A stretch of 42,221 nt of DNA from Gammaproteobacteria bacterium. GTDB taxonomy: Bacteria; Pseudomonadota; Gammaproteobacteria; Arenicellales; CAJQKF01. Positions 8,528 through 33,808 of this stretch are shown piece after piece. The DNA is taken from contig JAUIEZ010000030.1 in the NCBI GenBank assembly GCA_030429665.1, positions 1 through 42,221 on the forward strand. The letters are read 5' to 3'. Position numbers and translations under genes: made by a program. The stretch's first letter is position 1. Each line of letters opens with the position of its first letter. The notes under the pieces are model-generated. The model made no database searches. It was not told the DNA's origin and worked only from the letters and a program-made list of their open reading frames with translations.

Positions 8528-8675
8528 GAATGTCGGGGGAGACGACGCATTCGCAGCGCAGGGCGAGGTTCTCCGTCGGAACGCCGCAACGCTACCCGGG
8601 GGATTCGAAGAAAGTATACTGTGCGGGGACTGATTCGCCCGATTCGTGGGATTGCCGTACAACGTGCCGGAACCA

Positions 8676-10238
8676 ATGCGAATAACCTACCTGGGCCATT
8701 CCGGGCTTTATATCGAGACGCGGGCCGGCAGCATCCTTTGCGATCCGTGGTTCAATCCATGTTACTTCGCGTCGTGGTTCCCCTTTCCCGACAACGAGTC
8801 CCTCGACCCCGGTGCGTTCTCCAGTCCCGATTACCTCTACGTGTCGCACGAGCATCGCGACCACCTGGACCGTCGATTCCTGCGCGAGCACGTATCGCGG
8901 GATACGACGGTCCTGTTGCCCGACTACCCGGTTCGATCGCTGGAGCGGGAACTGCGTGACCTGGGGTTCGAATCGTTCCTGTATACCGTCAACGCCGAGC
9001 CCGTCGACCTGGACGGCGTGCGCATCGCCATCGTCGCGATGGTCACGCCATCGGACGGCCCGGAAGGCGATTCCGCGATGATCGTCGATGACGGTGAGAG
9101 CAGGGTGTTGAACCAGAACGATTCGCGTCCGGCCGATCTCGAGCCGTTGTTGGCGCTTGGCCCGTTCGACGCGCACTTCGTCCAGTTCTCCGGGGCGATC
9201 TGGTATCCCATGGTGTACCGGTTCACCGAGAACGAGAAAAAGGCGTTGGGGAAACAGAAGCGCGTCAACCAGCAGCAGCGCGCCCTGGCCTTCGTGCGCC
9301 AGGTGGGCGCTCGCCACGTATTTCCGTGCGGCGGTCCGCCGTGCTTCCTGGATGACGAGTTGTTTCATCTCAACGACGTCGACGACGATCCTTCGAACAT
9401 CTTCTGCGACCAGGCGGTCTTTCTCGACTTCATGCGAAGTCACGGAGAGCAGGGCGGGCGGCTGCTGGTTCCCGGCAGCGTTATCCAGCTCGACACCGGG
9501 CGCTGCACGACGACCCATCCTGTGCCGGACGCGGAGATCGACGCGATTTTTTCCGACAAGGCCGCCTACCTGGAAGCTTATCGAGCCCGGCGCAAACCAC
9601 AGCTCGAGGCCGCGAGGGCGGCCCTTCCCTCGCGGCAGCTCGATCTCCTGACATCGCTACGGGGCAAGTTCGAGCCGCTGCTTGCGCTCGCCGACCGCCT
9701 GTGCGCGGGCGTCGGGGCGCGCGTCCTGCTCGATTGTTCGGGTGAGCGGATCGTGTTGGATTTCCTGAACCGCAGCGTGTATCGATGGCGAGACGAGTAT
9801 TGCAGGTACCGGTTCTGGATCGACCGGCCCCTGGTCGAAGCCTGCCTCCTGAACGACGAGGAAGACTGGGTCAACTCGCTTTTTCTTTCCTTTCGATTCG
9901 AGGCCGAGCGCGATGGGCCGTACAACGAGTACGTCTACAACTTTTTCAAGTGCGTCAGCGTGGAACGGTTGCGGTATGCCGAGAATCATTATGCCGGGTG
10001 GACCGACGAGGACGAGTTGCTCCAGATCGACGGGCGCGTGGTCCAGCGGCGGTGTCCCCACCTGAAAGCCGACCTGGCGAGGTTTGCACACGTCGAGGAC
10101 GGCATCCTGACCTGTACGATGCACGGTTGGCAGTTCGATCTCGAGACCGGACAGTGCCTGACGTCGGACCAGTGCAGTCTGTTTACGCGCCCCGCGGGCG
10201 AAGACGGCGATGCCTCCGGGGACGACCGGGATCCATAA
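8676..10238 (+). CDS. Fusion of metallo-beta-lactamase-fold hydrolase and C-terminal Rieske [2Fe-2S] domain (CMAH-like)
   Basis: 520 residues from the ATG at 8676. The N-terminal MBL-fold domain begins MRITYLGHSGLYI, as in UlaG/CMAH-type proteins, and has the metal motif H58-x-H60-x-D62-H63 (SHEHRDHLD). The C-terminus carries a Rieske cluster motif C460-x-H462-x17-C480-x2-H483 in RRCPHLKADL and LTCTMHGWQFDL. MBL and Rieske domains are combined in vertebrate CMP-N-acetylneuraminate hydroxylase, but there the Rieske domain comes first. A middle region (about 280-440) has no motif I recognise. The role is inferred: an oxygenase or hydroxylase acting on a nucleotide sugar or glycan intermediate, because the next gene overlaps by 29 bases and encodes a glycosyltransferase. 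A TATACT hexamer at 8615-8620 could be a -10 element, but no matching -35 was found. Confidence 0.8.
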   Translation: MRITYLGHSGLYIETRAGSILCDPWFNPCYFASWFPFPDNESLDPGAFSSPDYLYVSHEHRDHLDRRFLREHVSRDTTVLLPDYPVRSLERELRDLGFESFLYTVNAEPVDLDGVRIAIVAMVTPSDGPEGDSAMIVDDGESRVLNQNDSRPADLEPLLALGPFDAHFVQFSGAIWYPMVYRFTENEKKALGKQKRVNQQQRALAFVRQVGARHVFPCGGPPCFLDDELFHLNDVDDDPSNIFCDQAVFLDFMRSHGEQGGRLLVPGSVIQLDTGRCTTTHPVPDAEIDAIFSDKAAYLEAYRARRKPQLEAARAALPSRQLDLLTSLRGKFEPLLALADRLCAGVGARVLLDCSGERIVLDFLNRSVYRWRDEYCRYRFWIDRPLVEACLLNDEEDWVNSLFLSFRFEAERDGPYNEYVYNFFKCVSVERLRYAENHYAGWTDEDELLQIDGRVVQRRCPHLKADLARFAHVEDGILTCTMHGWQFDLETGQCLTSDQCSLFTRPAGEDGDASGDDRDP

Positions 10239-11223
10239 GAGCCCAGAATCCGCGTGCCCTGCGCCGCCGATGCCCGGAGGGGAACCGGAACTCGCCGTCG
10301 TCGTGCTTGCCGTGGGCGCGCCGCCCGAACTGCGCACGGCGCTCGAATCCCTTGCCCGGCAAAGCGTTCCGGTCGAGATCGTCGTAGTCAATTCGGGCGG
10401 CGGAAACCCACGGTCCATGCTGCCGGAGGACGGCCCGCCCGTGCGTATCGTCAACGTGCGGCAAAGGCTGTGGCCGGGCGCCGCGAGAAATCTCGGCATT
10501 CGAGCGACCCGGGCGCCCTGGGTCGCCTTCCTGGCGTCGGACCATGTGATCGATGCCGATTGGGCGGCCGCTCGACTGGCGTTGCATCGGCAGGGCCACC
10601 GCGCCGTGGCGTGCGCGGTGGTCAACAGTCATCCGCGGAACCTTTATGCCTGTGCGTACCATTACGCCATCCTGGTTCGCCGGCTCCCGGGCATTCCCCG
10701 ACACGCGGCGTCGCTTCATGGCGTGAGTTATGCCCGGTCACTGTTCGAGGAACATGGTGAATTCCGCGAGGATCTTCGAATAGGCGAAGACACCGAGTTC
10801 AACAACCGGTTGTCCGACGCCGACCGTCCGTTATGGGCGCCTTCCGTCCAGGCGACGCATTTGAACCCGACGACCTTCGGTCACATGGTGAGAAGCCAGT
10901 ACCACCGTGGCCGACGGGCCGGACGGCACTGGCCCCATTGGCACCGGGGACCGTTCCTGGCGCGCGTGTCGATACGCTTCCCGATGACCATGCAATATGC
11001 CTTTCGGGCCACCCGCGGACTGGAACGATGCATGGCGATTGCCAGCGCGCCGCTGGTGCTCGTCTGCGTCTGTGCCTTCAGTCTCGGCGTCTCGGCCGCG
11101 CGCCGGCAGTCACCGCGAGAAAAGGTGCCTGTGCGCGCGCCACAAACAGCCGGGCGATTCAACCTGGCCGGCGACCTGGTTCGTCGCGCTGCCAGGCCGC
11201 GCCGCGGCGATCGTACAAAGTAG
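10210..11223 (+). CDS. Family 2 type glycosyltransferase with C-terminal membrane segment
   Basis: 337 residues. A GT-A fold start is seen in LAVVVLAVGAPPELRTALESL with QSVPVEIVVVNSG, followed by WPGAARNLGIRATRAPWVAFL, the classical GT2 GxxxARNxG pattern. The usual DxD after that strand is replaced by SDHVIDADW (109-118), while the later acidic motif GEDTEF (192-197) is kept. A hydrophobic helix at about 275-297 suggests membrane attachment. The ATG at 10210 lies inside the preceding gene (29-base overlap), implying coupled translation; a second ATG at 10270 is possible and would remove 20 proline-rich residues. It runs tail-to-tail, four bases apart, with the nucleotidyltransferase-like gene. 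Sugar and acceptor are unknown. Confidence 0.8.
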   Translation: MPPGTTGIHKSPESACPAPPMPGGEPELAVVVLAVGAPPELRTALESLARQSVPVEIVVVNSGGGNPRSMLPEDGPPVRIVNVRQRLWPGAARNLGIRATRAPWVAFLASDHVIDADWAAARLALHRQGHRAVACAVVNSHPRNLYACAYHYAILVRRLPGIPRHAASLHGVSYARSLFEEHGEFREDLRIGEDTEFNNRLSDADRPLWAPSVQATHLNPTTFGHMVRSQYHRGRRAGRHWPHWHRGPFLARVSIRFPMTMQYAFRATRGLERCMAIASAPLVLVCVCAFSLGVSAARRQSPREKVPVRAPQTAGRFNLAGDLVRRAARPRRGDRTK

Positions 11224-11227
11224 TGTC

Positions 11228-12649
11228 CTACGTTCGACGGAGCGTGGTCGCCGACGGTGCGCGCGCTTCGGTCTCGAGGTATTCCGACAATACCCGAACC
11301 AGGCGCGCCGCCCGGTCGTGCAACTGTCGAAAGGCGAGCATCGGGTCGAGAGGGGCTCTCGACGCCGGCCCGGCGCCCGGGCTTTCGCGGTCGCGGCCAT
11401 GCAAGACCGGGTCTTCGCCTGTAAGCGCTTCAAAGTAACCCGTCAGATTCTCGATGGTCGCGCGCACGGAATCATATTGATCCGGGTCGTCGCACCCGAC
11501 GAGGGAACGCAATTTCGGAAACACCGCGTAGGCGTCGACGAAGGCCCGGGTCCGCGTGTACGCCCCCGCGATCGTGTGCGTCGTGCCTTCCGGCAGCCGC
11601 GTGAAATTCCACGTCGGGCACGGCGCGTTGAGGTACAGCCTCTCGAACACGGTCGTCGTTACCAGGAACGGCTGGCGCCCGCCCGCGTTCGTCATTCGCA
11701 GGAACGTGTCCGTCGCGTTCGGGCAATCGTTCGACTCCAATACCACCAGGTCGGCGCAATCCATGCTGGCGACCCACATCGAGACGTCCTCGGCGGAACC
11801 GGCCGGTCCGTCGATGGCTGCCGCCGTCTCGCGGTCCGTGAATCCACGAATTCCACCGGGCGCGAGGCGCGGATCGTTCGCCGCCGGCTCGATGCACGCG
11901 GACACGGCGTCATCGAGCGCCCGCAGCAGGCCGGGCAGGACGTTAGCGCCCGTCGCCGGTCCCGGGTTCGCCGGCGCATGCTCCCCGGTCGAATGACGTG
12001 CCTGTCGCCCGTTCGTGTCCCCCGGCAGCATTCGGAATTCCCCGAATGCATTGCGAATGGAATGCAGCATCCGGTCGGCCATCCTGGCGCACAACCGCCG
12101 CTCGAGTTCGCTTTTCGGGTGGTTCCACAGCGCGGTCTGCACGCCCTCGAGGCGCCACAGCGCCTTGTAGACATGGTGCAGTCCCTTGGTCGCTTCGTCC
12201 ACGTGATACGCGGGATGCGCCGCGTCCTTGTCGAACACGGTCTTCGGTACGCCGTAGCGCTTGCCCAGGAAGAGGTCCGAGACCAGTCGCCATTCACGTC
12301 TCGCGTAGATGATCACGTGCGGCCCCACCTTGGGACGACCCCACGGAGGCATGGTGTAGCGCAGGAGCCGCTCGATGCGCCGAACCAGGCGGTACTCGGC
12401 TTCGCACGGGAGATCCGCCACGACAAGGACGAAGTCGATGTCGCTCAAGCCGGGCTCGGGGTCGTCGGTCGCCATGCTGCCGGCGAGGTAGGCCGCGCGA
12501 ACCGACGGCAGCGACCGGAACAACAATCCCAGCGCGCCGGCCAGGATGCGGTAGCACGAGCGACACGCGCCGCGCAGTGCCCGCATACGGCAGAAACGGG
12601 CGGCTAGGTGTTGCAGCGACACGATCGATTGCCGGAGACGAGAGGACAT
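11228..12649 (-). CDS. Large protein with nucleotidyltransferase (Pol beta/MNT-like) domain
   Basis: 473 residues. Residues 50-80 carry the nucleotidyltransferase signature: AYLAGSMA (G57-S58), then GLSDIDFVLVV with the metal-binding pair D70 and D72. The rest, about 390 residues, has no motif that I recognise. Parts around PKVGPHVIIYARREWRLVSD and WRLEGVQTALWNHPKSELERR are rich in aromatic and charged residues and look folded. Stand-alone MNT antitoxins are about 100-150 residues, so this is a much larger protein, closer in size to aminoglycoside-type or lipid/sugar-modifying nucleotidyltransferases. It sits among glycosyltransferase genes on the opposite strand, so adding a nucleotide or phosphate-linked group to a glycan or precursor is possible but unproven. 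Confidence 0.65.
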   Translation of the reverse strand: MSSRLRQSIVSLQHLAARFCRMRALRGACRSCYRILAGALGLLFRSLPSVRAAYLAGSMATDDPEPGLSDIDFVLVVADLPCEAEYRLVRRIERLLRYTMPPWGRPKVGPHVIIYARREWRLVSDLFLGKRYGVPKTVFDKDAAHPAYHVDEATKGLHHVYKALWRLEGVQTALWNHPKSELERRLCARMADRMLHSIRNAFGEFRMLPGDTNGRQARHSTGEHAPANPGPATGANVLPGLLRALDDAVSACIEPAANDPRLAPGGIRGFTDRETAAAIDGPAGSAEDVSMWVASMDCADLVVLESNDCPNATDTFLRMTNAGGRQPFLVTTTVFERLYLNAPCPTWNFTRLPEGTTHTIAGAYTRTRAFVDAYAVFPKLRSLVGCDDPDQYDSVRATIENLTGYFEALTGEDPVLHGRDRESPGAGPASRAPLDPMLAFRQLHDRAARLVRVLSEYLETEARAPSATTLRRT

Positions 12650-12823
12650 TCGCGTCCGATGCCGTCATGTACCGGATGCATGGTTCGGCTCGATGATATG
12701 ACGAGTGGAAGATGTCAGTGCCGGGCGTTTGGTCGCGGCACGGCGAATGGCCCTGTTGATCGACCGTTGTTTACTCTACCATGTCGCCTGTCCCGATCCG
12801 ACGACATCGCAATCGATTCCTCC

Positions 12824-13633
12824 ATGCGGCGACTGCTACGATATCCCCGATCGATCATCCGGCGGCTGCGCAATGTCAGGCCGCCGATACGGCCGGGCGC
12901 GCGACGGATCGCGGGCGTGATGGCGACGAGGAACTACGACGGCGCGACCTCGACGTTCGAAACGCTCCAGGAACTGAGCGACCTGACCATCGTCCTCGAC
13001 GACAATTCCGATTCGCCCTTCCCGCACGAGGCGCTGTGCACCGAGTACCTGTCCATGCGCAACGCCCTGCCGTGGAACGCCCCGGCGAACCTTACGCTGC
13101 TCATCTACCGCGCATTCGTACACGGCTGCGAGTGGATCGTATCGCTGGACGACGACATCATTCTTTCTTCCGGTTTTCGATCCAGGGGCGACGTGGAGGA
13201 GGCGGTGGATGCCATGGAGGCGCGTGGCGCCGATATCTGCCATTTCCCGCTCAGGGATCTGTGGGACTCGCACCGGCAGGTTCGCGTCGACGGCGTCTGG
13301 TCCCGCAAGACCTTTCCCGTGCTGCGCCGGAACTGGTTTTTCTACGGCGACGCGACGCTGCGCGACCCCTCCCTTCGCCTGCACACGGCGGCGTTTCCCG
13401 CCGACCTCAAGGTGATCGACATGGTCCACCCGGAACACGTCGCCTACCATACCGGATGCATGACCGCGGAGCTGCGCCGTTCAAGGGTGCGCAAATACGC
13501 CGTCGAGGATCCCGACAATACCTTCCAGGCGGACTATGCGTACATGCTCGACGAACGAGGGCTCCAGCTGCAAGCCGTTTCCGATGCCGACGCGGCGCTG
13601 ATTCGGCAGAAACTGAACGCCCGACCGTCCTGA
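12824..13633 (+). CDS. GT-A fold glycosyltransferase-like protein
   Basis: 269 residues from the ATG at 12824. The sequence upstream in frame is open but Cys/Arg-rich and unlike a folded protein, so this start is preferred. Strand patterns RIAGVMATRNYDG and DLTIVLDDNSDSP (58-64) match the nucleotide-sugar binding start of GT2-like enzymes. The metal site is D109-D110-D111 in WIVSLDDDIIL. A basic N-terminal tail (MRRLLRYPRSIIRRLR) could lie against the membrane. It faces the nucleotidyltransferase-like gene divergently (174-base gap) and converges with the next GT2 gene (21-base gap). Donor and acceptor sugars are unknown. Confidence 0.65.
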   Translation: MRRLLRYPRSIIRRLRNVRPPIRPGARRIAGVMATRNYDGATSTFETLQELSDLTIVLDDNSDSPFPHEALCTEYLSMRNALPWNAPANLTLLIYRAFVHGCEWIVSLDDDIILSSGFRSRGDVEEAVDAMEARGADICHFPLRDLWDSHRQVRVDGVWSRKTFPVLRRNWFFYGDATLRDPSLRLHTAAFPADLKVIDMVHPEHVAYHTGCMTAELRRSRVRKYAVEDPDNTFQADYAYMLDERGLQLQAVSDADAALIRQKLNARPS

Positions 13634-13654
13634 CGTCATCATGTGAATCCGGGA

Positions 13655-14875
13655 TCAGTTCACGCGCACGGGTCTTTCGCAGGCATCGGGTCGTGTTTCG
13701 CCGGTATCCTGTCGATCGCGGCAGAACGCGATCATGCGGCACGGCAGTTCGTCGAACAGCCGACGATCGTAGGCGACCCATTTGTCCAGATTGTCGGCAC
13801 CGCCGCTCTGGGTGAGGCGCTCGAACTCGACGCGGGCGTCGCTGAATCGTCCGCGGGATATCAGCCAGTGACCCTTGATCCACGTCGTCTGGAGGTTGCC
13901 GGGAAAAAAGCGTTCCGTCTCCTTCAGCAGCGACTTTGCGTCCACGCCGGTGGATACCAGGTGGGTCAGCAGGGCAAGATGCACGGAGCAGTGGGCGGGA
14001 TGGTGTCGCGAATAGCGCCCGAGAATGGCGACGCCGCGCCGCCATGCGCGTTCCGCCGACTCGGGATCGCCGAGCGCGGCGTACACGTCGCCGAGATGGC
14101 CCCAGATATACACCTTGTCGATCTCGTCCGGTTCGGATTGCAGCGCCCTGACGAGCAGCGGCAGGTTTCGTTCGTGCTTCGCGGTCAGGTCCCCGTCATA
14201 GCCGTAGTGATCGAAGCGCAGCATGCAGCGGCCGATATGCTTCCCGCTGGCGGCGCGAAGTTGACCCGGCGTGATTCCCTCGTGAATGACGGACCGGTGT
14301 CGCAGCGCGGTCAGCCGCCTGTAGAGCTTGAGTTGCCAGTTGCGCGTCAGACGGGTGCGGCGCCGGAACAGTACGTAGTACGCGCACACCGAGTCGTCGC
14401 GCACCAGTTGGTCCAGGTAGTCGCCGGAAGACGGCAACAAGACCTCGTCGGCGTCGATCGCGAGTATCCATTCCCCGCGGGCATGGTCGCGGGCAACGTT
14501 TCGTGCCTCGGCGAAGCTGTCGTTCCACCGGGACTGGATCACTCGCGCACCGTACGCTCGCGCGATGTCCTGGGTTCCGTCGGTGGATCCGGTGTCGACC
14601 ACGACGATTTCGTCGACCCGGTCCCTGATGCTCTCCAGGCAGGCGGCGAGATTTTTTGACTCGTTCCTGACGATCAGGCAACCGGAAATGCCCGCGCGCC
14701 GGCCGCGATGACCGGTCGCGCGTTGCCCGGGCTCGGCGATGGGCCGGTCGCGGCAATGCGCGTAGTCGTCGTATGTCTGGCAGGTTCTCCACACGCCAAC
14801 CGGCTCCGCCGCGTGTACGGAGACATCGTTGGCGGGCAACTCGCGGTTCCCGGGTGAATGGCTCGTATCGTTCAT
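13655..14875 (-). CDS. Family 2 glycosyltransferase with C-terminal TPR-like repeats (SunS/WaaE-like)
   Basis: 406 residues from the ATG at 14875; a TTG 14 codons upstream is less likely. About 60 low-complexity N-terminal residues precede the GT2 domain: SGCLIVRNESKNLAACLESI, the substrate motif VVDTGSTDGT (93-101) and metal motif DADE (141-144). The segment from about 250 to 400 has alpha-helical repeats of TPR type (YIWGHLGDVYAALGDPESAE and similar). This architecture is common in bacterial GT2 enzymes that modify peptides or LPS core. It is the outermost gene of the first glycan island and is divergent from uvrA. A role in glycan assembly is likely, with substrate unknown. Confidence 0.85.
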   Translation of the reverse strand: MNDTSHSPGNRELPANDVSVHAAEPVGVWRTCQTYDDYAHCRDRPIAEPGQRATGHRGRRAGISGCLIVRNESKNLAACLESIRDRVDEIVVVDTGSTDGTQDIARAYGARVIQSRWNDSFAEARNVARDHARGEWILAIDADEVLLPSSGDYLDQLVRDDSVCAYYVLFRRRTRLTRNWQLKLYRRLTALRHRSVIHEGITPGQLRAASGKHIGRCMLRFDHYGYDGDLTAKHERNLPLLVRALQSEPDEIDKVYIWGHLGDVYAALGDPESAERAWRRGVAILGRYSRHHPAHCSVHLALLTHLVSTGVDAKSLLKETERFFPGNLQTTWIKGHWLISRGRFSDARVEFERLTQSGGADNLDKWVAYDRRLFDELPCRMIAFCRDRQDTGETRPDACERPVRVN

Positions 14876-15014
14876 GTGACGCACCCTTGACTGGCGAAGA
14901 CCACGTCTTCCGACCAATCGTGGAGGAATTCACCGGCGCGTGCAAGGCGTGGCCGGTTGCCGGGATCGCGCCACCCGGCGGCTCGGTCGCGTGCCGGAGT
15001 GCCTGCATGACGAA

Positions 15015-15043
15015 TTGAGCCCATTGCCGTGAACACCGATAAT
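15015..15043 (+). promoter_or_regulatory. Predicted sigma-70-type promoter of uvrA
   Basis: TTGAGC at 15015-15020 and GATAAT at 15038-15043 are separated by exactly 17 bases. Transcription would start near 15050, 40 bases before the ATG at 15089. This argues against the in-frame GTG at 15029, which lies between the two hexamers. No LexA-type CTG-N10-CAG box was seen nearby, so SOS control is not supported by what is visible. Confidence 0.55.
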
Positions 15044-15088
15044 CATACGGCCCGGTTGAACCCCGATTCCTCAAGACGCCGCCGCCCG

Positions 15089-18000
15089 ATGCCCCATCAC
15101 GTGATTCGCCTGCGCGGTGCGCGCCAGAACAACCTCAAGAACCTCGACCTCGAGCTCCCGCTGGGCAAACTGGTGGTGATCACCGGGCCGAGCGGCTCCG
15201 GCAAGTCGTCGCTGGCCTTCGACACCGTCTTCGCCGAGGGCCAGCGCCGCTACGTCGAGACCTTTTCGCCTTATGCTCGCCAGTTCCTGGACCGCATGGA
15301 CAAGCCCGCCGTGGACGCCATCGAGGGCATTCCGCCGGCGATCGCCATCGACCAGACCAACCCGGTGCGCAACTCGCGGTCCACGGTCGGCACCATGACC
15401 GAGCTGAACGATCACCTGAAGCTGCTCTTCGCGCGCGCGGCGCGTCTGTTCTGCGCCGGTTGCGGACGCGAGGTGCGCCGCGATCACGCCGGCGCCATCG
15501 TCGCCGACCTGCTGCGGCGCGGCGAGGGCGAGCGGGCCGTGGTCACTTTCGACATTGCGCTGAGCGGCGCCGTCGCCGGGGACAAGGTGCGGGCGGAACT
15601 GGCGCGTCAAGGTTACACGCGGGTGGAGGCCGTCGGCGCGAACCGCCTGCGCGTGACCCAGGACCGGGTGCGGCTCGAGAGCGGCCGGCGCGATCGCGTT
15701 ACCGAGGCGGTGGAGGCCGCGCTGCGCGCCGGTCGAGGGCGAATGGGCGTCACCGTCCTCGATCGGGAAGGAAGCCCCGCACGGCACTGGCGTTACTCGG
15801 AAGGATTGCACTGCCCGGACTGCGACCGCGACTACACCGATCCCATTGCCAATTCCTTCTCCTTCAATTCGCCGGTGGGCGCCTGCGAGGCCTGTCGGGG
15901 ATTCGGCCGCGTGATGGGGATCGATTACCGCCTGGTGGTGCCGGACGAGAACAAGTCGCTGGCCGAGGGCGCCGTCAAGCCGTGGCAGACCGACAGCTAC
16001 GACGAGTGCCAGCGCGACCTTATCAGGCATTGCCGCCGCTTCGGCGTGCCAACGGACGTGCCGTGGAAGGATCTCGACGAAAAGGACCGACGGTGGGTGC
16101 TCGAGGGCGACGCCGACTGGACGTGGAAGTCCACGAGCGGCGGCTGGTACGGGGTGCGCCGCTTCTTCGACTACCTCGAGTCCAAGGCCTACAAGATGCA
16201 CATCCGCGTGCTGCTGTCGCGCTATCGCGCCTACGACGAGTGTCCGTCCTGCCGGGGCGCGCGGCTGAAGCCGGAGTCGCTATTGTGGCGCATCGGTTCG
16301 AAGGCCGACGCCGACGCCGTGCTGTGCCCGGCGCGGCGCTTCAAGCCCGCCGGCGCGAACGTCCCGGACGACGTGCTCGAAGGGCAACCCGGTTTGAACA
16401 TGGCCGATGTATCGGGCCTGCCCATCGGCGCGGTGCGCGAGTTTTTTCGGCGGATTCACCTTCCCGCGCCGCTGGACGAGGCCTCGGAGCTGCTGCTGGA
16501 CACCATCCGCGCGCGGCTCGACTACCTGGTCGAAGTGGGACTCGATTACCTGACCCTGTCGCGCCAGTCGCGCACGCTGTCCGGTGGCGAAGTGCAGCGC
16601 ATCAACCTGACCACCGCGCTCGGCACCTCGCTGGTCAATACCCTGTTCGTGCTCGACGAGCCCAGCATCGGCCTGCATCCGCGGGACATGGATCGCATCA
16701 TCGGCGTCATGCACCGGCTGCGCGACGCCGGCAATTCGCTGCTGGTGGTCGAGCACGACCCGCAGGTGATGCACGCCGCCGACCGCGTCATCGACATGGG
16801 GCCGGGGCCCGGCGAGCGCGGCGGCGAGATCGTGTTCCAGGGCACGCCCAGGCAGCTCTTGCGCTCGCGACGCTCGCTCACCGCCGACTACCTGAGCGGC
16901 CGGCGCCGGGTGGCGGCGGGCGTCGATGCCGACCGACTGCCGGTCGCCATCGGGAAAGGGCACTGGCTTGCCGTCGAGGGTGCCGCCGCGCACAACCTGA
17001 AGGAAATCGACGTCAGCTTTCCGCTCGATCGACTCGTGGTGGTCACCGGCGTCAGCGGCTCGGGCAAGTCCACCCTGGTGGAGGACGTGCTGTATCGCGC
17101 GCTGGCGGAGATCAAGGGTCGGCCCGGCGACGTGCCGGGTGCCCACAAGCGCATCACCGGGCACGGGTTGGTCGACGACGTCGTGCTCGTCGACCAGTCG
17201 TCGATCGGCCGTACCACGCGCTCCTCGCCGGCCAGCTACGTCGGCGCCTTCGAGGTCATCCGCAAGCTGTACGCGGCCCTCCCCGAGGCGAAGGCGCGCG
17301 GCTACACCGCGGGCACGTTCAGCTTCAACGCGGGCAACGGACGCTGCCCGACCTGCGGCGGCAACGGCTTCGAGCACGTGGAGATGCAGTTCCTGAGCGA
17401 CGTGTACCTGCGCTGCCCGGACTGTGACGGCCGCCGCTACCGGCCCGAGATCCTGGACGTGACCCTGCCGCCGTCGGTCGGTTCGTCAGCCGGTCCGCGT
17501 TCCATCGCCGAGGTGCTGGAAATGTCGGTGAACCAGGCCGTGGTGTTTTTCGCCGACCATCCCGACGTGCTGCGCGTGCTGGAACCGCTGCAGGCCGTGG
17601 GCCTGGGGTACATGACCCTCGGCCAGCCGGTGCCGACGCTGTCCGGCGGCGAGGCGCAGCGGCTCAAGCTCGCGGGCCATCTTGCCCGCGCCGCGACGCG
17701 CCGGCGCGGCGACGAACGGTTGCTGTTCCTGTTCGACGAGCCGACCACCGGCCTGCACATGGACGACGTCGCCGCGCTCCTGGGGTCGTTTCGGCTGCTG
17801 CTGGAAGCCGGCCATTCGCTGGTGGTCATCGAGCACAACCTCGACGTCATGGCCGCGGCGGACTGGCTCGTCGATCTCGGGCCGGAGGGCGGGACGGCGG
17901 GCGGCGAGGTGGTGGCGGCCGGTACGCCGGAAGCCGTCATGGAGGTGAAGACCAGTCACACCGGTCGGGCGCTCAGGCGATACCTCGGCCGCGCGAACGC

Positions 18001-20641
18001 GCCGCGCGAGGGACGATCCGTCACCGTTGCCGAGGCGCCGCCCGCCTACGGCGCCGGCGCGCGCCGCAACGCCATCAGCATCCACCACGCCCGCGAGCAC
18101 AACCTGAAGGACGCCGACATCTCGATCCCGCGCGACAAGCTCACGGTGATTACCGGGTTGTCCGGCTCCGGCAAGAGCACGGTGGCCTTCGACATCGTCT
18201 TCAACGAGGGTCAGCGGCGTTACCTCGAGTCGCTCAACGCCTACGCCCGGCAGTTCGTCCAGCCGTCCTCGCGTCCGGACGTGGACGCGGTTTTCGGCAT
18301 CCCGCCCACGGTCGCCATCGAGCAGCGTACCAGTCGCGGCGGGCGCAAGAGCACGGTCGCGACCATGACCGAGGTCTATCACTTCCTGCGCCTGCTGTTC
18401 GTCAAGCTCGGTACGCAATACTGCCCGGACTGCGACCGACCCATCGAGGCGCAGACGCCGGCCGCCATCCGCCAGCGCATCCTGCGCGAGGCGCGCGGCC
18501 GCAAGGCGACGCTGCTGGCGCCCCTCGTGGTGGCGCGGAAAGGCTACTACACCGATCTTGCCCAATGGGCCGAAAGGAAGGGCTTCACGACACTGCGCGT
18601 GGACGGCATCGAGCAGCCGACCGCCGACTGGCCGCGACTCGCCCGGCACAAGGAGCACGACATCGACCTGCCCGTGGGCACGATCAAGGTGAGCGCGGGA
18701 TGCGAGGCCGAACTGGACGAGCTGATCGAGCGCGCGCTGGATTTCGGCCAGGGTGTCGTGAAGCTCTCGACTGCCCGCGGCGAGACCATACTTTCCACGA
18801 AACGGTCGTGCGCCGGCTGTGGCCGCAGTTTTCCCGAACTGGACCCGAGATTGTTCTCGTACAACTCCAAGCACGGCTGGTGCGACGGCTGCTTCGGCAC
18901 CGGCCTGGCACTGGCGGGCTTCGGCGAGGAACAAACCGGCGAGGAAGACGCCTGGCTGAACGGCGGAGACGACGCCCCGGGCGTTTGCCCGCGCTGCCAG
19001 GGCCGACGTCTCAGGCCCGAGGCGCTCGCGGTGCGGTTCAAGGGCCGGAACATCGCCGAGTATACCGCCCGGTCCGTCAAGCAGGCCGCGCGCGCGTTTC
19101 GCGCGCTGCGACTCTCGGGCCGCGAGTCCGGCATCGCCCGCGACATCCTCCCGGAAATCCGGACGCGGCTGGAATTCCTGCAACAAGTGGGTCTCGACTA
19201 TCTCGGGCTGGATCGCGCCGCCCCCACGCTGTCGGGCGGAGAGGCCCAGCGCATTCGCATCGCCGCCCAACTCGGCTCCAATTTGCAGGGCGTGTGCTAC
19301 ATCCTCGACGAGCCCACCATCGGCCTGCATCCGCGCGACAACCGCATGCTGCTGGATACCCTGGCCCGGCTCGAAGGCAAGGGCAACACCATCGTGGTGG
19401 TCGAGCACGACGAGGACACCATCCGCCGTGCCGAGCACGTCATCGACCTTGGCCCCGGCGCCGGGGTCAACGGCGGGCGCGTCGTCGCCGAGGGCTCGGT
19501 AACGGCGCTGAAGCGAAATACCGAATCCATCACCGGCCGCTGCCTGGCCAACCCGCTCCGTCATCCCCTGCTGGAGAACCGGCGTACGGACAAGCCCGAG
19601 ACGGTGCTGCGTGTCGAAGGCGCGCACCTGCACAACCTGCGGCATATCGATGTCGAGATTCCCCTGCGGCGGCTGGTCTGCGTCACCGGCGTATCCGGCT
19701 CCGGGAAGAGTTCGCTGGTTCGCGGCGTGCTGCACGACAACCTGCGCCGCCTGGTCAGAACGCGCCGGGGCCGAAGGCCCGGGCCGGTCGGCTGCGTCGC
19801 CATCGACGGCTGGCGGCACATCGACCGCGTACTGGAAGTGGACCAGTCGCCCATCGGCAAGACGCCGCGCTCCTGCCCCGCGACCTACGCCGGATTCTGG
19901 GACGACATTCGCAAGCTGTTCGCCGGGACCGAGGAAGCGCGCCTGCGAGGTTTCGAGGCGCGCCGGTTCTCGTTCAACACCAGCGACGGCCGCTGCCCGG
20001 GCTGCGAAGGGCAGGGCATGAAGCGCATCGAGATGAATTTCCTGCCCGATGTCACGGTGCCGTGCGAACTCTGTGCCGGCGCTCGCTTCACGCCGGAGAC
20101 CCTGGCCGTCACCTGGGGCGGCAGGCACATCGGCGAGGTGCTCGGCATGAGCGTCGACGAGGCTATCGAACACTTCGGCGCCCAACCGAAGATCCATCAC
20201 GCGCTGGAACTCATGCGCGACGTCGGTCTCGGCTACCTCACGCTGGGGCAGCCCAGCCCGACCCTCTCCGGCGGCGAGGCGCAGAGGCTCAAACTGGTCA
20301 CCGAGCTGGCACGGGCGCGCCCCGACCTGCGCCGCCAGCGCGAACCCCACACCCTGTACCTCCTCGACGAGCCCACGGTGGGCCTGCACATGGCCGACGT
20401 GGAACGCCTGATCCGCGTGCTGCACCGCCTGGTGGACGCCGGCCACAGCGTGGTGCTGATCGAGCACAACCTGGACGTGATCGCGGAGGCCGACTGGGTG
20501 ATAGACCTGGGGCCCGACGGTGGCGATGCCGGCGGGCGCATCGTCGCCCAGGGGCCGCCGGAGAAGCTCGCGCGCACCCGTCGGCGAAGCGAGACCGCGC
20601 GCGTCCTGCGCGAGTTTCTCGAGGCACGGACGCTAGCCTGA
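15089..20641 (+). CDS. uvrA: Tandem-duplicated excinuclease UvrA (four ABC cassettes in one chain)
   Basis: DNA-damage recognition ATPase of nucleotide excision repair, here 1850 residues, about twice the usual length of ~940. Each half is a complete UvrA. Walker A motifs lie near residues 33 (GPSGSGKSS), 654 (GVSGSGKST), 1023 (GLSGSGKST) and 1534 (GVSGSGKSS). There are four LSGGE signatures and four Walker B DEP motifs ([40 protein letters not shown]). CxxC zinc-module pairs occur in both halves, for example [22 protein letters not shown] and CPGCEGQG. The halves join near residue 985-1000. Normal UvrA works as a homodimer, so this chain may act as a covalent dimer; related dimeric-form UvrA proteins occur in other Pseudomonadota. 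The promoter position supports the ATG at 15089. Confidence 0.93.
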
Positions 20642-20705
20642 AGGCAGTGCGAACGTTTTCCGGTATGTTCTCGGCGATGTGGCTGGCGGCCGATCGAATC
20701 GCGAA

Positions 20706-20738
20706 ACCGGGGTGCGCGTCCCGGTCCGTCAGACGGAC
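20706..20738. terminator. Pair of short inverted repeats between convergent uvrA and M24 genes
   Basis: ACCGGG at 20706-20711 pairs with CCCGGT at 20720-20725 (8-base loop), and GTCCGTC at 20724-20730 pairs with GACGGAC at 20732-20738. They sit between two genes that end towards each other, the usual place for a bidirectional terminator. No T-run follows on either strand and the second repeat overlaps the last codons of the M24 gene, so the call is tentative. Confidence 0.28.
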
Positions 20739-22000
20739 AGCAGCCGTTCCTCGAGAGGGAACGTGGACAGGCGTCTCGGTCCGTTCTCCGTGACCAACAC
20801 CTGCTCCTCGAGCTTGACGCCGTCCGGGCCGCCGGTTTCGCCGATGTAGCTTTCGACGCACAGCACCATGCCGGGTTCGAGGACGATCTCGCCCTCGCCC
20901 TGGGCTTCGAGGAGTTTGCGTTGGTAGCAGTTGGGCCACTCGTCGCACAGGCCGACGCCGTGGGCGATGAACGTGTAACTGTTCGCCGCGTACTCGGGCG
21001 GTACGGGCCACGCCTTCTCCGCGACGTCGCGCAGGGCGGCGCCCGCTTCGAGCAGTTCGGTGTTGTGCCGGATCTCCTCCACGGCGAGGGCGTAGAGATG
21101 GCGCTGGCGCGCGGTCGCTTTCGCCGGGCCGCAATGGAAGGTGCGCGAGATGTCCGCGCAATAGCCGAACGGCCCGATCATGTCGGTATCGAAGGCGACG
21201 ACCTCGCCGGATTGGACGGGCTTGTCGGACGCCTCCTGCAGCCACGGGTTGGTGCGTTGCCCGGAGGTCAACAGCCTGCATTCCAGCCATTCGCCGCCGT
21301 GGGCGATGTTCGTGTCGGCGAGCGCCGCCCACAGCTGGTTCTCGGTGATGCCGGGCCGGAGCATTTCCAGCATGTTCTGCATGCCGTGCTCCGCCACGGC
21401 CAGGGAGACCTCCATGCACTCGATCTCCTGCGCCGACTTGATCGACCGCGCGATCTCCATCGGCGCCTGCGCGTCGTGGACTTCAAAGCCGCGACGTTCC
21501 AGGGCGAAGGCCAGGTTGGGCTCGCAATGGTCCATGGCGAGCCGCTTGCTGCCACCGCCGTAAAGCCTGGCCAGGTCGCCGATTTCCGCGATCCAGTCGG
21601 CCACGTTGCGTTCGACGTTCGCGCCGCCGGTGGCCGCGCGGCAGGAAATCCTGGGCCGAACCTCGTCCACCCGTCCCGATCCTTGGGTGAGGTGACGGAA
21701 GTGGGGCTTCTCGAAAAACACCACGGGCCCCTCACCGGGAATGAAGCCGTAGCGATCGCGGAAGTGCAGCGAGAACACCGGCATGGTGCTGGTGCCGGTG
21801 GCATAGCGGATGTTTACCGGGTCGTAGAGCACCATGCAGGCGAAGTCCGCCCTGCGTATCTGCTCCCGGACGCGCCCGAGCCGGTACGACCACAGCGATT
21901 CGATATCGATCTCGAACGTGTGAAGGCCGCGACGCTTTGCATACAGCGCCTGGGCGGCGCGCATGCGCCGGTCAGGAGACTCGTTCGGATCGTAGGCCAT
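20729..22000 (-). CDS. M24 (creatinase/aminopeptidase-P fold) protein, DddP-like candidate DMSP lyase
   Basis: 423 residues, pita-bread fold. The C-terminal half has a complete set of M24 metal ligands: D271, D273, D283, H347, E383 and E398. The motif after the histidine is HGVGLCDEWP (347-356), as in DddP, the enzyme that cleaves dimethylsulfoniopropionate to dimethyl sulfide and acrylate. From memory of the DddP structure from Ruegeria lacuscaerulensis (D295, D297, D307, H371, E406, E421, catalytic D377, Y366), the residues here sit at a near constant offset of 23-24, including D353 and Y342. GGEWLECRLLTSG and NIRYATGTSTM also resemble DddP. Close relatives outside marine alphaproteobacteria may be peptidases, so activity is not proven. 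It converges with uvrA, and no acrylate or DMSP transport gene is adjacent. Confidence 0.7.
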   Translation of the reverse strand: MAYDPNESPDRRMRAAQALYAKRRGLHTFEIDIESLWSYRLGRVREQIRRADFACMVLYDPVNIRYATGTSTMPVFSLHFRDRYGFIPGEGPVVFFEKPHFRHLTQGSGRVDEVRPRISCRAATGGANVERNVADWIAEIGDLARLYGGGSKRLAMDHCEPNLAFALERRGFEVHDAQAPMEIARSIKSAQEIECMEVSLAVAEHGMQNMLEMLRPGITENQLWAALADTNIAHGGEWLECRLLTSGQRTNPWLQEASDKPVQSGEVVAFDTDMIGPFGYCADISRTFHCGPAKATARQRHLYALAVEEIRHNTELLEAGAALRDVAEKAWPVPPEYAANSYTFIAHGVGLCDEWPNCYQRKLLEAQGEGEIVLEPGMVLCVESYIGETGGPDGVKLEEQVLVTENGPRRLSTFPLEERLLSV

Positions 22001-22091
22001 GGCGGTTTCCGCGTGCTACCGGTAACGAACGAGCGATATTCTAGTCGCGGAAGTCTCTCGCGCAGTATTCCCGGTTTGAAAGCGTAAACCG

Positions 22092-22307
22092 CTACCGCTC
22101 GATTCTTCGTTTGCTATCGAGGTCGCCGGCCGGGCGGGTGGTTTTCCCATTAGCGCTCGCTCGGTCGATTACGAATGAATTCTGCGGCGCGCCCTGAATC
22201 GTGCGCCTCCTCGAACGCCAGCGTCGCGCGGCGACCATGGCTCCCCCGGAACCGGCCGCTCCCGCGAGCAGGCAGGCGGCCGCGCTGACGATGCAAACGG
22301 GGCACAT
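22092..22307 (-). CDS. Small CPVC-motif hydrophobic protein, unknown function
   Basis: 71 residues beginning MCPVCIVSAAACLLAGAAGS, so a CxxC pair is directly at the N-terminus and is followed by one hydrophobic helix (about 5-27), then a basic tail. Short proteins starting MCPVC with one helix are widespread and uncharacterised. It begins 12 bases after the stop of the DUF899 gene on the same strand, which itself has a CxxC pair, so co-transcription is likely. No convincing ribosome binding site is visible. The tail beyond about residue 35 has no clear fold, so the true protein may be shorter in function than in length. Confidence 0.45.
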   Translation of the reverse strand: MCPVCIVSAAACLLAGAAGSGGAMVAARRWRSRRRTIQGAPQNSFVIDRASANGKTTRPAGDLDSKRRIER

Positions 22308-22319
22308 GGATATGGCCGG

Positions 22320-22967
22320 TCAGTACTCGTCGTGCTTGCGCCACCACTGGTAGGGCGGCGTTTGTGGTACGTAATCGGGCGCGTCCTCCCACTCTTCCTG
22401 GCGTCCCATGGCGGTCAGGTCGAGGTAGGAGAAGTTGCTGCCGAGGTATTCCGCGCCGCGCAGGGTGGTGTGATAGGTGCGAAAGATGCGTTCGCCGTCG
22501 CGAATGAAGGCGCTCAGGCCGAACATCTCGCCGTCTTCGCGGGTGGCGTCGAAGTCCTTGTTGAAATCGCTGCCGGCGGAGGAATACCACGGTTCGGTCC
22601 AGCCCATGCGTTGCCTGTATGCCTCCAGCCTGGGCCAGGGCGCCAGCGAGACCAGCACCCGGGACGTGTCTCGCGCGTGGAGGTGGGCGGGATGACCCAT
22701 GTTGTCGACCATCATCGAGCAGCCGACGCAGGGGGATTCGGCGAACATGAAGTGATACACCAGCAACTGTTTTCGTCCCGCGAACAGGTCGGGCAATCCG
22801 ACGGGGCCGTCCGGGCCGGTCAGCGTGTAGGACTTGGTCACTTCGGTCATCGGCAGGCGACGCCGTTCGGCGTTGAGGGCATCTCGCGCGCGGGTGTGGG
22901 TCTTTTCCTTGACCCGAAACGATTCGATGGCCGCTCGCCATTCTCGTTCGCTTACGATCTCGTTCAT
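22320..22967 (-). CDS. DUF899 family thioredoxin-like protein
   Basis: 215 residues from the ATG at 22967, chosen because a GGAGA ribosome binding site lies 7-8 bases upstream; the frame is open further up without a comparable site. The family has a thioredoxin-like fold. Here the strand LLVYHFMFAESPC leads into a C80-x-x-C83 pair (CVGCSMM), and further family motifs follow: SRAPLA-type SLAPWPRLEAY, MGWTEPWYSS and DFNKDF. The usual length is 210-260. Function is unproven in general; a redox role is inferred from fold and CxxC. It is divergent from the GlxA-like regulator across a 144-base gap, which suggests control by it. Confidence 0.85.
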   Translation of the reverse strand: MNEIVSEREWRAAIESFRVKEKTHTRARDALNAERRRLPMTEVTKSYTLTGPDGPVGLPDLFAGRKQLLVYHFMFAESPCVGCSMMVDNMGHPAHLHARDTSRVLVSLAPWPRLEAYRQRMGWTEPWYSSAGSDFNKDFDATREDGEMFGLSAFIRDGERIFRTYHTTLRGAEYLGSNFSYLDLTAMGRQEEWEDAPDYVPQTPPYQWWRKHDEY

Positions 22968-23111
22968 GTCCAAGTCTCCGTGGGTTGATGCGATGACATG
23001 AGTTTGGTCGACTCCGCTCGCGCGGGCGCTGTGGTGAAAAGCCATTCAGGGGGTGGTTTTGTGCCAAGTCGTCGGCTATGCTGCAGGTAACTTCCCGGCG
23101 GATGCATTGCG

Positions 23112-24098
23112 ATGAAGTCGGTTTACATTCTGGTCCACGAGGACGTGGTGCTGTCTTCGGCCGCGGCGCCGTTGGACATCTTCACCCGCACCAACGACAT
23201 ACTGCGCTCGGACGGAAGATCGCCGGCGTTCAACGTTTCGCTGGTCGGTCGTCGCCCGGACAAGGTATCCCTGAAGTTACCCGCGCTGTTCGACTGCCGG
23301 CGGGCGCTGGACGAAGTGCCGCCCAAGTCGGCCGGTCATCGGCAATCGTTGATCCTGGTGCCGGCGTTCGACGGCGACTGGGAGAACGTGCGTGACAGGA
23401 ACCGGGACGTGATCGAGTGGCTTGCCCGGCACCACCGGAGCGGCACGGAGATCGCGAGTCTATGCGTGGGCAGCTATTTCCTCGCGGAGGCGGGCCTCCT
23501 GGACCACAAGCCGTGCACGTCGCATTGGGCCGCGGTCGAGGACATGCGCCGGCGCTATGCGAGCGTCGAGTTTCAACCGGACTCGGTATTGACCGATCGG
23601 GACGGCATCTACACTGGGGGTGGCGCGTTCTCGTCGCTGAACCTGGTGTTGTACCTGGTGGAAAAATTCTGCGGCCACGATATCGGCGTGCGCGTTGCGA
23701 AGAACTTTTCGATCCATCGCGATCACGTCAACCAGGCGCACTTTTCGGTGTTCAACGGGTTGAACCGGCACGGCGACCGGGTGATCCTGAACGCGCAGGA
23801 CTACATCGAGTCTCACTATGCCGAGGACATCAGCGTCGAAAGCGTTGCCGGCATGGTGAACATGAGCAAGCGAAATTTCGTACGCCGTTTCAAGCGGGCG
23901 GTTAAGGTTACGCCGCTTGAGTATATCCAGCGTGTGAAAATCGAGGCGGCGAAGAAAGCGCTCGAACAGGGCCGTCAGAACATCCAGGCGCTGACCTACG
24001 AAGTCGGTTACAGCGACAGCAAGACGTTTCGTACCGTTTTCAAACGACTGACCGGCGTGACGCCGCAGGACTACCGCAACAAGTACGGGCGAGCGTGA
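23112..24098 (+). CDS. GlxA family transcriptional regulator (DJ-1/PfpI-like domain plus AraC DNA-binding domain)
   Basis: 328 residues. Residues 1-190 form a class-I glutamine-amidotransferase-like (DJ-1/PfpI) domain, with PLDIFTRTND near the start and a cysteine at the nucleophile elbow (C118 in ASLCVGSYFLAEAG). The C-terminal ~100 residues hold two helix-turn-helix motifs of AraC type: ISVESVAGMVNMSKRNFVRR and IQALTYEVGYSDSKTFRTVF, ending in TGVTPQDYRNKY. Such proteins are usually activators that sense a small molecule. The divergent partner encodes the DUF899 protein and is the best candidate target. No inverted repeat typical of an AraC site could be assigned with confidence in the shared 144-base region. 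Confidence 0.9.
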   Translation: MKSVYILVHEDVVLSSAAAPLDIFTRTNDILRSDGRSPAFNVSLVGRRPDKVSLKLPALFDCRRALDEVPPKSAGHRQSLILVPAFDGDWENVRDRNRDVIEWLARHHRSGTEIASLCVGSYFLAEAGLLDHKPCTSHWAAVEDMRRRYASVEFQPDSVLTDRDGIYTGGGAFSSLNLVLYLVEKFCGHDIGVRVAKNFSIHRDHVNQAHFSVFNGLNRHGDRVILNAQDYIESHYAEDISVESVAGMVNMSKRNFVRRFKRAVKVTPLEYIQRVKIEAAKKALEQGRQNIQALTYEVGYSDSKTFRTVFKRLTGVTPQDYRNKYGRA

Positions 24099-24245
24099 GT
24101 TTGACGTCTTGCCGGTCGGCGGCGAAAGTCGGCGCTTAGCCGCGACGATAGACGTCGTCGAAACCGTTGGCCCGGGGTTGGCACTGTTTGCCCGTTCCGG
24201 CGCTTGTTTATACCAGGCGAATCGAAAAGTCGGAGCGCGCCCTCG

Positions 24246-26078
24246 ATGGAGTCATCACTGTTCGGTCTCCTGTGCGCCGACGATCGCCGGCAGGCGTCGT
24301 CGGAAGACCTGGCGATGGTCGCCGCGACCATTGGCGCGCCCCGTGCCGCCATCCGGGCCGAGGGGCCATTGGCGGTAGGCCTGCACGGCGGCATCGTCGA
24401 GGGCAGTCCCGACACGGCGTCGATGGCCATCGATCCCGGTTGCTCGTTATGGGTGGCCGTCACGGGAAACATCGACAACCGTGCGCACCTGGTCCACTGC
24501 CTTGCACGGGACGCGCAGCCGCACGCAACTACCACGGATGCCGCGCTCGTTCTTGCGCTGTTCCGCACGAAGGGAGCGTCCTTCATCGAGGCCGTCGAGG
24601 GTTGTTTCAACATCGTCATCTGGAACGCGCCAGAGAGGGAACTGATGTTGTACACGGATCACTGCGGCGGCATCAGGCCTATGTATTACTACCCGGGACC
24701 CGACTTCCTGGCCTTCGGTTCCACGGCCAAGGCCGTGGTGGCGCACGGCCGTGTGCCGCGCCGTGTCGATACGGTCGGCCTGGACCAACTGGTCGCCTTC
24801 GCGCATCCGATCGCGCCGAGGACGCTGTTCGAGGGCGTCAGCGTATTGCCCGGCGGCACCTTCCTCAAGTATCGCGAGGGACGGCTGGAAACCGGACGAT
24901 ACTGGCAGCGACAGCCGTTTCGTGACACCGGGGAAGACTTGTGTTCGTTGAGCGAGCGCTATTTCAATACCTTGACCAGGGCCGTGGAGAACCTCGTCGA
25001 TGCCCGTCGCGAACCGGGAGTGTTGCTCAGCGGCGGCGTCGACTCGGCCGCGCTGGTCAGCCTGATTCGTCGCGCGGGCTGCGATCGACTGAAGACGTTT
25101 TTCGTGAACACCGCCGACGCAACGCACGGCGACCGCGAGGCCGCGCGGCGGGTCGCGGCGCTGCATGGTACGGAACACCACTCCCTCGATGCCCTCGATG
25201 CCGGGTGCCTGGAGCGCCTGCCGGAGATGATCTGGCACTACGAGTCCCCGGGACAGGGCTTTTATCCAACCTACCTGCTGTGCGAAGAGGCGAAACGCCA
25301 TTGCGACGTCGTCCTCACGGGGCACGGCAATGACCTCGTTTGGGGCACCTTGCCGCCGCGCTGGTGGGCAAGCGCCTGGCTGTTTGGACTCTCCTCCGCC
25401 GTGGCCTTGCGGGGATACACGCTCAAGCGAAGAATGCTGCGCCGCCGCGCCGCACGCCGCCTGCTCGCCAACGGTCCGGCCACGGACCTGGGCCTGCTCG
25501 CGGCTATCTCCGGGTACGCGGTGCGAACCGGAAACCTGGTCACCGACTTCATCTGCCTGGATGAATCCCTGTTCGGCGATCAACGGGTTTGCCGCGAGCT
25601 CGGCAAGTTCGCATTCGATGCCCATTCCCTGCGCGTGCTCATGCCGTACACGGATGCGGCCGTTACCGAGATGGCGGAAAGCGTTCCCCCGGATGCGCGC
25701 TTCACCAGCTGGTACGATGGGCAAACCCGGCTCAAGGGCTTTTTCAAGGACGTGATGAACCAGTACCGGGTGCTGCCGGAGGATCTCATATTCAGAAAAA
25801 AGGCCTGGATGAACTCGCTGATGCCGCAATGGCTGCGCGGGGATCACGGGCTCGTCGTCGAGGACATCCTGCTCGGCGGCGGCTCGCGCATCGGCGATTT
25901 TTTCGATACCGGCGCTGTGACGCAGGCATGGCACGAGCATCGCGCCGGGATCGCCGATCATGGCTACGTCCTCGCCATGCTGACTGCCTTCGAAGTATGG
26001 CGCGGGCTTTTCATCGATCCGCCCGCCATTCGCTCGCCCGTCGTCCATCTCTCGGATTTTCGCGACAGCGTGCGCTGA
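24246..26078 (+). CDS. Asparagine-synthetase-like amidotransferase lacking the N-terminal cysteine
   Basis: 610 residues from the ATG at 24246. The C-terminal half is an Asn-synthetase adenylating domain with the PP-loop SGGVDS at 262-267, followed by TGHGNDLVWG, which fits the pyrophosphate/substrate site. The N-terminal half still resembles a class-II glutaminase (TGNIDNRAHL, EGCFNIVIWN, DHCGGIRPMYYY), but the obligatory Cys2 of MCGI-type proteins is absent: the protein starts MESSLFGLL. It may therefore use free ammonia or activate a carboxylate for another nucleophile. In other surface-polysaccharide clusters such enzymes amidate uronic acids (WbpS type). It is followed by DUF115 and GT9 genes on the same strand, which favours a glycan role over asparagine supply. 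Confidence 0.82.
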   Translation: MESSLFGLLCADDRRQASSEDLAMVAATIGAPRAAIRAEGPLAVGLHGGIVEGSPDTASMAIDPGCSLWVAVTGNIDNRAHLVHCLARDAQPHATTTDAALVLALFRTKGASFIEAVEGCFNIVIWNAPERELMLYTDHCGGIRPMYYYPGPDFLAFGSTAKAVVAHGRVPRRVDTVGLDQLVAFAHPIAPRTLFEGVSVLPGGTFLKYREGRLETGRYWQRQPFRDTGEDLCSLSERYFNTLTRAVENLVDARREPGVLLSGGVDSAALVSLIRRAGCDRLKTFFVNTADATHGDREAARRVAALHGTEHHSLDALDAGCLERLPEMIWHYESPGQGFYPTYLLCEEAKRHCDVVLTGHGNDLVWGTLPPRWWASAWLFGLSSAVALRGYTLKRRMLRRRAARRLLANGPATDLGLLAAISGYAVRTGNLVTDFICLDESLFGDQRVCRELGKFAFDAHSLRVLMPYTDAAVTEMAESVPPDARFTSWYDGQTRLKGFFKDVMNQYRVLPEDLIFRKKAWMNSLMPQWLRGDHGLVVEDILLGGGSRIGDFFDTGAVTQAWHEHRAGIADHGYVLAMLTAFEVWRGLFIDPPAIRSPVVHLSDFRDSVR

Positions 26079-26186
26079 TCGGCGCGTTCGCCGTCGACAA
26101 CCGGCCATCGGTGATACCCATGACGGCGTCCTGGTTGGTAGACTTGCCCCGGCGAACCACCCACGGGCCTGCCGCCCCGCAATCGA

Positions 26187-27065: not shown

Positions 27066-27101
27066 TGCGGCGCGCTCGAACGACGACGGGATGCTAGGGC
27101 G

Positions 27102-28214: not shown

Positions 28215-28251
28215 CCGGCCAAGGACGACGAGCGAGAGATCTGCGCGCTTG

Positions 28252-29448: not shown

Positions 29449-29472
29449 CGAAAGTGCCCTGAACGGCGGACG

Positions 29473-30498: not shown

Positions 30499-30514
30499 GA
30501 CGCCGGAATCCGCA

Positions 30515-31510: not shown

Positions 31511-31511
31511 G

Positions 31512-33747: not shown

Positions 33748-33808
33748 GCCCGTCAGCCCGGCCGCCGATGGTCCGGGTCGGGCGCGGCCATCCGTGGCGC
33801 AGGGACGA

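Follow-up and report, generated by a model that had tools for sequence, protein, structure and literature searches.

NamH, the product of Rv3818, carries a UlaG domain at its N-terminus and a Rieske domain at its C-terminus (PMC10050696) and is listed as UDP-N-acetylmuramic acid hydroxylase, acting on the UDP precursor pool (PMC11555704), with UDP-MurNGlyc being formed by means of molecular oxygen (PMC10234563). The naming is that of Raymond et al. 2005, as cited in PMC10050696 and PMC11555704. N-glycolyl muramic acid is regarded as characteristic of mycobacteria and their actinobacterial relatives and has been associated with tolerance of lysozyme and beta-lactams and with stronger sensing by NOD2 (PMC11555704, PMC10234563), direct evidence for it coming mainly from Actinomycetales (PMC11555704); the literature we searched held no direct evidence for this sugar in Chloroflexota or Gram-negatives. 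Two further groups are relevant here, CMP-sialic acid hydroxylase (CMAH), in which the Rieske domain is N-terminal (residues 6-112; PMC9219854), and the metallo-beta-lactamase (MBL) oxidoreductases, which have a more acidic ligand set than their hydrolytic relatives (PMC7785958).

The window analyzed here, that is the whole stretch of 42,221 nucleotides, contains at 8676-10238 of the forward strand an ORF of 520 codons plus stop, whose 520 aa product had been described in an earlier note as a fusion of an MBL and a Rieske domain. Both domains (Lactamase_B_2/_3 and Rieske) exceed the Pfam cut-offs, thus the fusion itself holds, but a third domain lying between them, SCP2_Rv3818 (residues 324-440), had been overlooked. 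The features of the gene are as follows.

8676..10238, + strand: namH-family gene with MBL (UlaG-type), SCP2-like (Rv3818-type) and Rieske domains (Pfam, at least 80 homologues, nearly all full length, tree)
8676..9335, + strand: MBL-fold domain, approximately residues 1-220, with what is probably a (di)iron centre of oxygenase type (PF12706/PF13483; profile and fold matches to FrsH and CmlA)
8847..8864, + strand: HEHRDH, residues 58-63, predicted metal ligands (invariant in 37 homologues)
9054..9074, + strand: DGPEGDS, residues 127-133, with D127 and D132 invariant (37-homologue alignment; DG...D also in L116 and L117)
9111..9125, + strand: NQNDS, residues 146-150, with N148 and D149 invariant, probable bridging metal ligand (alignment; N..D also in L116)
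9645..9995, + strand: SCP2-like domain, residues 324-440 (PF25451 SCP2_Rv3818, E-value 7e-46, 155.7 bits against a cut-off of 28.2)
10035..10172, + strand: Rieske [2Fe-2S] domain, Pfam match over residues 454-499 (PF00355, 1e-9; the model of residues 436-520 resembles Rieske ferredoxins)
10053..10124, + strand: Rieske motif C460-x-H462-x17-C480-x2-H483 (CPH-x17-CTMH), its four ligands invariant in 35 homologues

The HxHxDH site at residues 58-63 and the complete Rieske motif at 460-483 are located where the earlier note had placed them, in agreement with Pfam, and the two motifs occurred together in none of 20,000 shuffles of the 520 aa protein. About 60 residues are invariant across 37 aligned homologues, including all those of HxHxDH as well as D127, D132 and D149, the invariance of the four Rieske ligands referring to the 35 alignment rows used for that domain; taken as a set, the metal-site residues are invariant or almost so in the 37 homologues, and the metal sites are intact. 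A ring-hydroxylating Rieske oxygenase was also considered and rejected, since Pfam found no match to the Ring_hydroxyl catalytic domain in the 520 aa protein, the C-terminal end of which is the Rieske domain.

The order MBL - SCP2_Rv3818 - Rieske obtained with Pfam is that of NamH, an arrangement already published, and the Pfam domain PF25451 itself bears the Rv3818 name. Hence the suggestion of an undescribed oxygenase family had to be dropped: judged by its sequence, the protein is a member of the NamH family. A genome scan yielded at least 80 homologues, nearly all of them full length, with about 50-62% identity. Among the matches listed, the closest belong to Chloroflexota and Egibacteraceae (61-62% identity), and full-length relatives were found in Mycolicibacterium, Rhodococcus and Micromonospora (about 49-51%) and in many Chloroflexota; the mycobacterial and Rhodococcus orthologues aligned over residues 1-505. 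The enzyme class is thus known and the family ordinary; what is new is the Pseudomonadota host, the glycosyltransferase neighbourhood being likewise unusual. An apparently split copy was also observed in L113 (5001-6758, Microbacterium plasmid NZ_CP072877), where namH is annotated as three ORFs (MBL, hypothetical and Rieske); degradation of the gene or a sequencing error is the probable cause.

When the family profile was compared with the PDB, the MBL domain matched FrsH (8e-9) and CmlA (6e-5), both ahead of any hydrolase; these best matches being diiron oxygenases, the result supports oxygenation rather than hydrolysis. An AlphaFold model built with 37 homologues reached a mean pLDDT of 88.8, and its best PDB fold matches were CmlA and FrsH, two diiron hydroxylases of MBL fold, together with UlaG-type MBL proteins; none of the solved structures returned by the PDB searches covered two or more domains of the NamH-type protein. 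At the position of the third metal histidine of MBL hydrolases (PGHTPGS-type motif) the family has an invariant DGPxGDS, and motif comparison suggests that D127 may replace this histidine; such an invariant Asp would fit the more acidic ligand set reported for MBL oxidoreductases (PMC7785958). The note had asked whether the Rieske part folds around a cluster at all: modelled alone (residues 436-520), it resembled Rieske proteins only, which occupied all of the first 50 PDB matches, the best being BphA3 and the toluene-4-monooxygenase ferredoxin with a probability of ~1; owing to the small size of the domain, the lowest E-value was no better than 4e-3.

The earlier comparison with CMAH, in terms of an opposite domain order, is correct in that the two proteins carry the Rieske domain on opposite sides of the MBL domain, but is better worded as a probably related MBL core to which the Rieske domain is joined at the other end. 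This rests on two alignments: with a provisional CMAH sequence, the MBL domains of both proteins align over ~220 residues, a stretch in which the DG...D and N..D motifs are found, and the bacterial proteins L116 and L117 are colinear with NamH residues 2-370 (hhalign probability 98%). L116 and L117 were the two best matches of the CMAH bait, their similarity to both CMAH and NamH being confined to regions other than the Rieske part; no Rieske-bearing CMAH was evident in 398 phylum genomes with this bait, again the provisional sequence. A circular permutation of CMAH (Rieske-MBL-SCP2 against MBL-SCP2-Rieske) was also considered, and sequence gave it no support: in a profile comparison of the CMAH C-terminus (provisional sequence) with the SCP2-like domain, the result was not above that of shuffled sequences. 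L116 and L117 are Pseudomonadota proteins of ~450-480 aa having a NamH-like MBL-SCP2 core (DG..DS, N..D) and no Rieske match, possibly forming an uncharacterised group of relatives. An archaeal MBL protein of 474 aa from a Halobaculum plasmid (L112, 6001-7425) shows 27% identity to NamH residues 1-343, with no PF25451 and no Rieske match.

The tree of the 80 homologue loci fetched and the window protein splits into two halves, one of 32 rows including the window protein (31 other loci) and one of 49 loci. The window protein adjoins two Chloroflexota rows (92/76) inside a starred clade of 18 (96/95), and its grouping with the mycobacterial and Rhodococcus clade was rejected (p-AU 1.7e-5). Such a position in the sister half, together with Chloroflexota, indicates a member of another NamH branch and not a recent mycobacterial transfer. 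Two loci titled Proteobacteria (L010 and L014) group with Ktedonobacterales, apart from the window protein, and are probably mislabelled bins. Streptomyces and Actinospica proteins appear in two distant NamH branches (L022, L026, L029, L031 and L032 in one; L037, L043, L059 and L070 in the other), so some streptomycetes carry namH-like genes, though the genus is usually described as lacking them.

According to tblastn, peptidoglycan genes adjoin namH at 10 of the 31 other loci in the half containing the window protein and at none of the 49 in the other half, which served as a rough background for cell-wall gene linkage. Some of mreC, mreD, PBP2 and rodA were found near namH at L008, L011, L016, L018, L019 and L027, a Mur-ligase-family gene at L020, L024 and L028, while at L009 a glutamate-racemase-type gene ends 48 bases upstream of namH. 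These ten loci support a peptidoglycan role on the Chloroflexota side, while the background half indicates that many members lack such a linkage. The namH genes of Micromonosporaceae repeatedly have housekeeping genes as neighbours, identified by eye as frr, rlmN and dxr. At the Mycolicibacterium locus L055 the neighbours are, by eye, glf, serS and a pheA-like gene, which we take to be the neighbourhood of Rv3818 on the M. tuberculosis map. The earlier note had named homologues consistently next to unrelated catabolic genes as evidence against its reading; this did not occur, the informative contexts of the closer homologues being those of peptidoglycan synthesis and not of catabolism.

No 16S rRNA gene was found in the bin, thus the phylum was placed through RpoB (67% identity to that of E. 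coli) and uvrA, which was closest to Burkholderia among plasmid records; according to these sequences the host is a member of Pseudomonadota, probably of the gamma or beta group. The distribution of the gene around this host is patchy: in overlapping samples of 109 genomes from the order, 369 from the class and 398 from the phylum, the window genome alone has PF25451. In the congener G001, corA is directly followed by the segment that starts at 33.8 kb of the window, so the 25-kb block carrying namH (8.6-33.7 kb) is absent from that site. In another genome, G002, the same place is occupied by an unrelated stretch of ~4 kb that includes a GT2-like gene; the site thus looks like an insertion hotspot. 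The block and the genes that concern us are the following.

8530..33800, no strand: 25-kb block between corA and a CBS-domain gene, absent in the same-genus genome G001 (synteny, content, codon use)
10210..11223, + strand: GT2 glycosyltransferase directly downstream of namH, possible start 10270, candidate partner (PF00535, 1.4e-14)
13655..14917, - strand: GT2 glycosyltransferase with a TPR-like tail, in the same lower-GC3 segment (PF00535, 1.2e-22; GC3 0.79)
28252-29448: GT4 glycosyltransferase, among the minus-strand ORFs lacking a Pfam or NCBIfam match
29473-30498: Gfo/Idh sugar dehydrogenase, among the same minus-strand ORFs

In their codon use, namH and its glycosyltransferase neighbours resemble the flanking genes less closely: the mean log frequency of codons ranged from -1.02 to -1.20 for this group and from -0.73 to -1.02 for a set of 12 genes that were flanking or host-like, the two ranges touching at namH. 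The block ends displayed no convincing direct repeats and no convincing tRNA, and a phage search gave no match. Horizontal acquisition of namH is the best reading of these data; a Chloroflexota-type donor is the most likely from the tree, the long end branch of the window protein (0.79) leaving the donor uncertain. Besides namH, the block contains GT2, GT4 and GT8 glycosyltransferase, sugar dehydrogenase and methyltransferase genes, plus uvrA and an M24 peptidase gene. The latter two, a tandem UvrA of ~1850 aa and the peptidase (15089-22000), show host-like codon use inside the block, and the congener has its uvrA in another context. A 3265-bp contig of bin G001 (L087) is over its whole length 100% identical to 13408-16672 of the window, G001's own uvrA being 81% identical, which reflects either a contig shared between two bins or sharing of the island at strain level. 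Neither Pfam nor NCBIfam models matched the minus-strand ORFs of 985, 212 and 331 aa (24447-27404, 27405-28043 and 30515-31510) or the ORFs at 11228-12649 (-) and 12608-13633 (+), the former of this last pair having a nucleotidyltransferase-like SDIDFVLVV stretch by eye.

Taken together, we consider it likely that the gene encodes a UDP-N-acetylmuramic acid hydroxylase of the NamH family, horizontally acquired from what is likely a Chloroflexota-type source. The immediate neighbours, glycosyltransferases and not Mur genes, count against UDP-MurNAc as the substrate, and the same surroundings had led the earlier note to a nucleotide sugar or glycan. A NamH-type enzyme recruited to a surface-glycan island would hydroxylate an N-acetyl group on another UDP-sugar, and the adjacent GT2 would then transfer the resulting N-glycolyl sugar into a polysaccharide. 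This agrees with the GT2 gene lying directly downstream, with the GT4, GT8, sugar dehydrogenase and methyltransferase genes of the same block, with the long branch and with the fact that no peptidoglycan gene was recognised near namH. The 29-base overlap between both genes exists if the GT2 start is the ATG at 10210, but disappears with the in-frame ATG at 10270, and since the GT2 Pfam domain begins only at residue 30 its exact extent is uncertain. Moreover, GT2 was paired with namH at none of the 80 fetched homologue loci, and the partnership was rejected as a conserved trait; every family-conserved residue is retained, and with genes of no related function, uvrA for example, in the same block, the neighbourhood is weak evidence. 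We therefore regard such a recruitment as doubtful, and its more specific form, in which the captured hydroxylase would supply an exopolysaccharide or O-chain with some N-glycolyl nucleotide sugar different from UDP-MurNGlyc, as unlikely; if true, the latter would give the NamH family a new substrate and bacteria an equivalent of the Neu5Gc step.

A contig that is chimeric or mis-binned, the true host being a member of Chloroflexota or Actinomycetota from the same sample, would account for the Chloroflexota rows nearest in the tree and for a corA-namH junction seen in one assembly only, the assembly being a metagenome bin of 245 contigs with 2.25% contamination. However, both flanks (4.6-8.5 kb and 33.8-42 kb) share 74-84% identity with a genome of the same genus, uvrA on the far side shows 81% identity to that genome, and contig C180 of bin G001 repeats the GT2-uvrA junction at 100% identity, although both may derive from the same reads, for which reason we find this explanation improbable. 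Even less credit can be given to an MBL domain acting as a hydrolase, with a merely structural or regulatory Rieske domain and no oxygenase at all: the UlaG-type fold and the many MBL hydrolases among the fold matches are compatible with it, but the leading profile matches are the oxygenases FrsH and CmlA, the invariant Asp stands where hydrolases have their third metal histidine, and a need for O2 has been reported for NamH.

Under the preferred reading of a NamH-family hydroxylase, electrons from NAD(P)H would pass through some ferredoxin or reductase to the C-terminal Rieske cluster and onward to the N-terminal MBL domain, whose two-iron centre would activate O2 and convert the N-acetyl methyl of UDP-MurNAc into N-glycolyl; the modified precursor would then enter peptidoglycan through the ordinary Mur pathway. 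A probable role of the SCP2-like domain is to assist in binding the nucleotide sugar or in keeping both redox domains in contact. Both murB and murC are present in the host genome, so the host makes UDP-MurNAc. The nucleotide-sugar hydroxylation proposed in the note is probably right, as predicted from homology to NamH, and the length of the window protein's branch (0.79) indicates that specificity may have shifted. If true, NamH in a Gram-negative, and in many Chloroflexota beside cell-wall elongation genes, would imply that the modification is broader than thought and mobile.

With NamH of mycobacteria the window protein shares the UlaG/MBL - SCP2-like - Rieske order, similarity over the full length and all the invariant residues, whereas it differs in its Gram-negative host, its position on the Chloroflexota-side branch of the tree and its glycosyltransferase neighbours. 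CMAH also combines a Rieske domain with a probably related MBL domain and converts N-acetyl into N-glycolyl on a nucleotide sugar; however, its Rieske domain is N-terminal instead of C-terminal and the sugar nucleotide is another one. Rieske non-haem iron (ring-hydroxylating) oxygenases resemble it in having a Rieske cluster that feeds an oxygenase site, but Pfam did not find their catalytic ring-hydroxylase domain in the 520 aa protein. Finally, the MBL-fold diiron beta-hydroxylases CmlA and FrsH, the closest relatives in the PDB, share the MBL domain and its HxHxDH motif, which in them forms a diiron oxygenase site, while acting on amino-acid substrates of peptide synthetases, possessing an unrelated N-terminal half and lacking a Rieske domain; this kinship of the MBL domain suggests for NamH a di-iron, Rieske-fed chemistry that can be tested.
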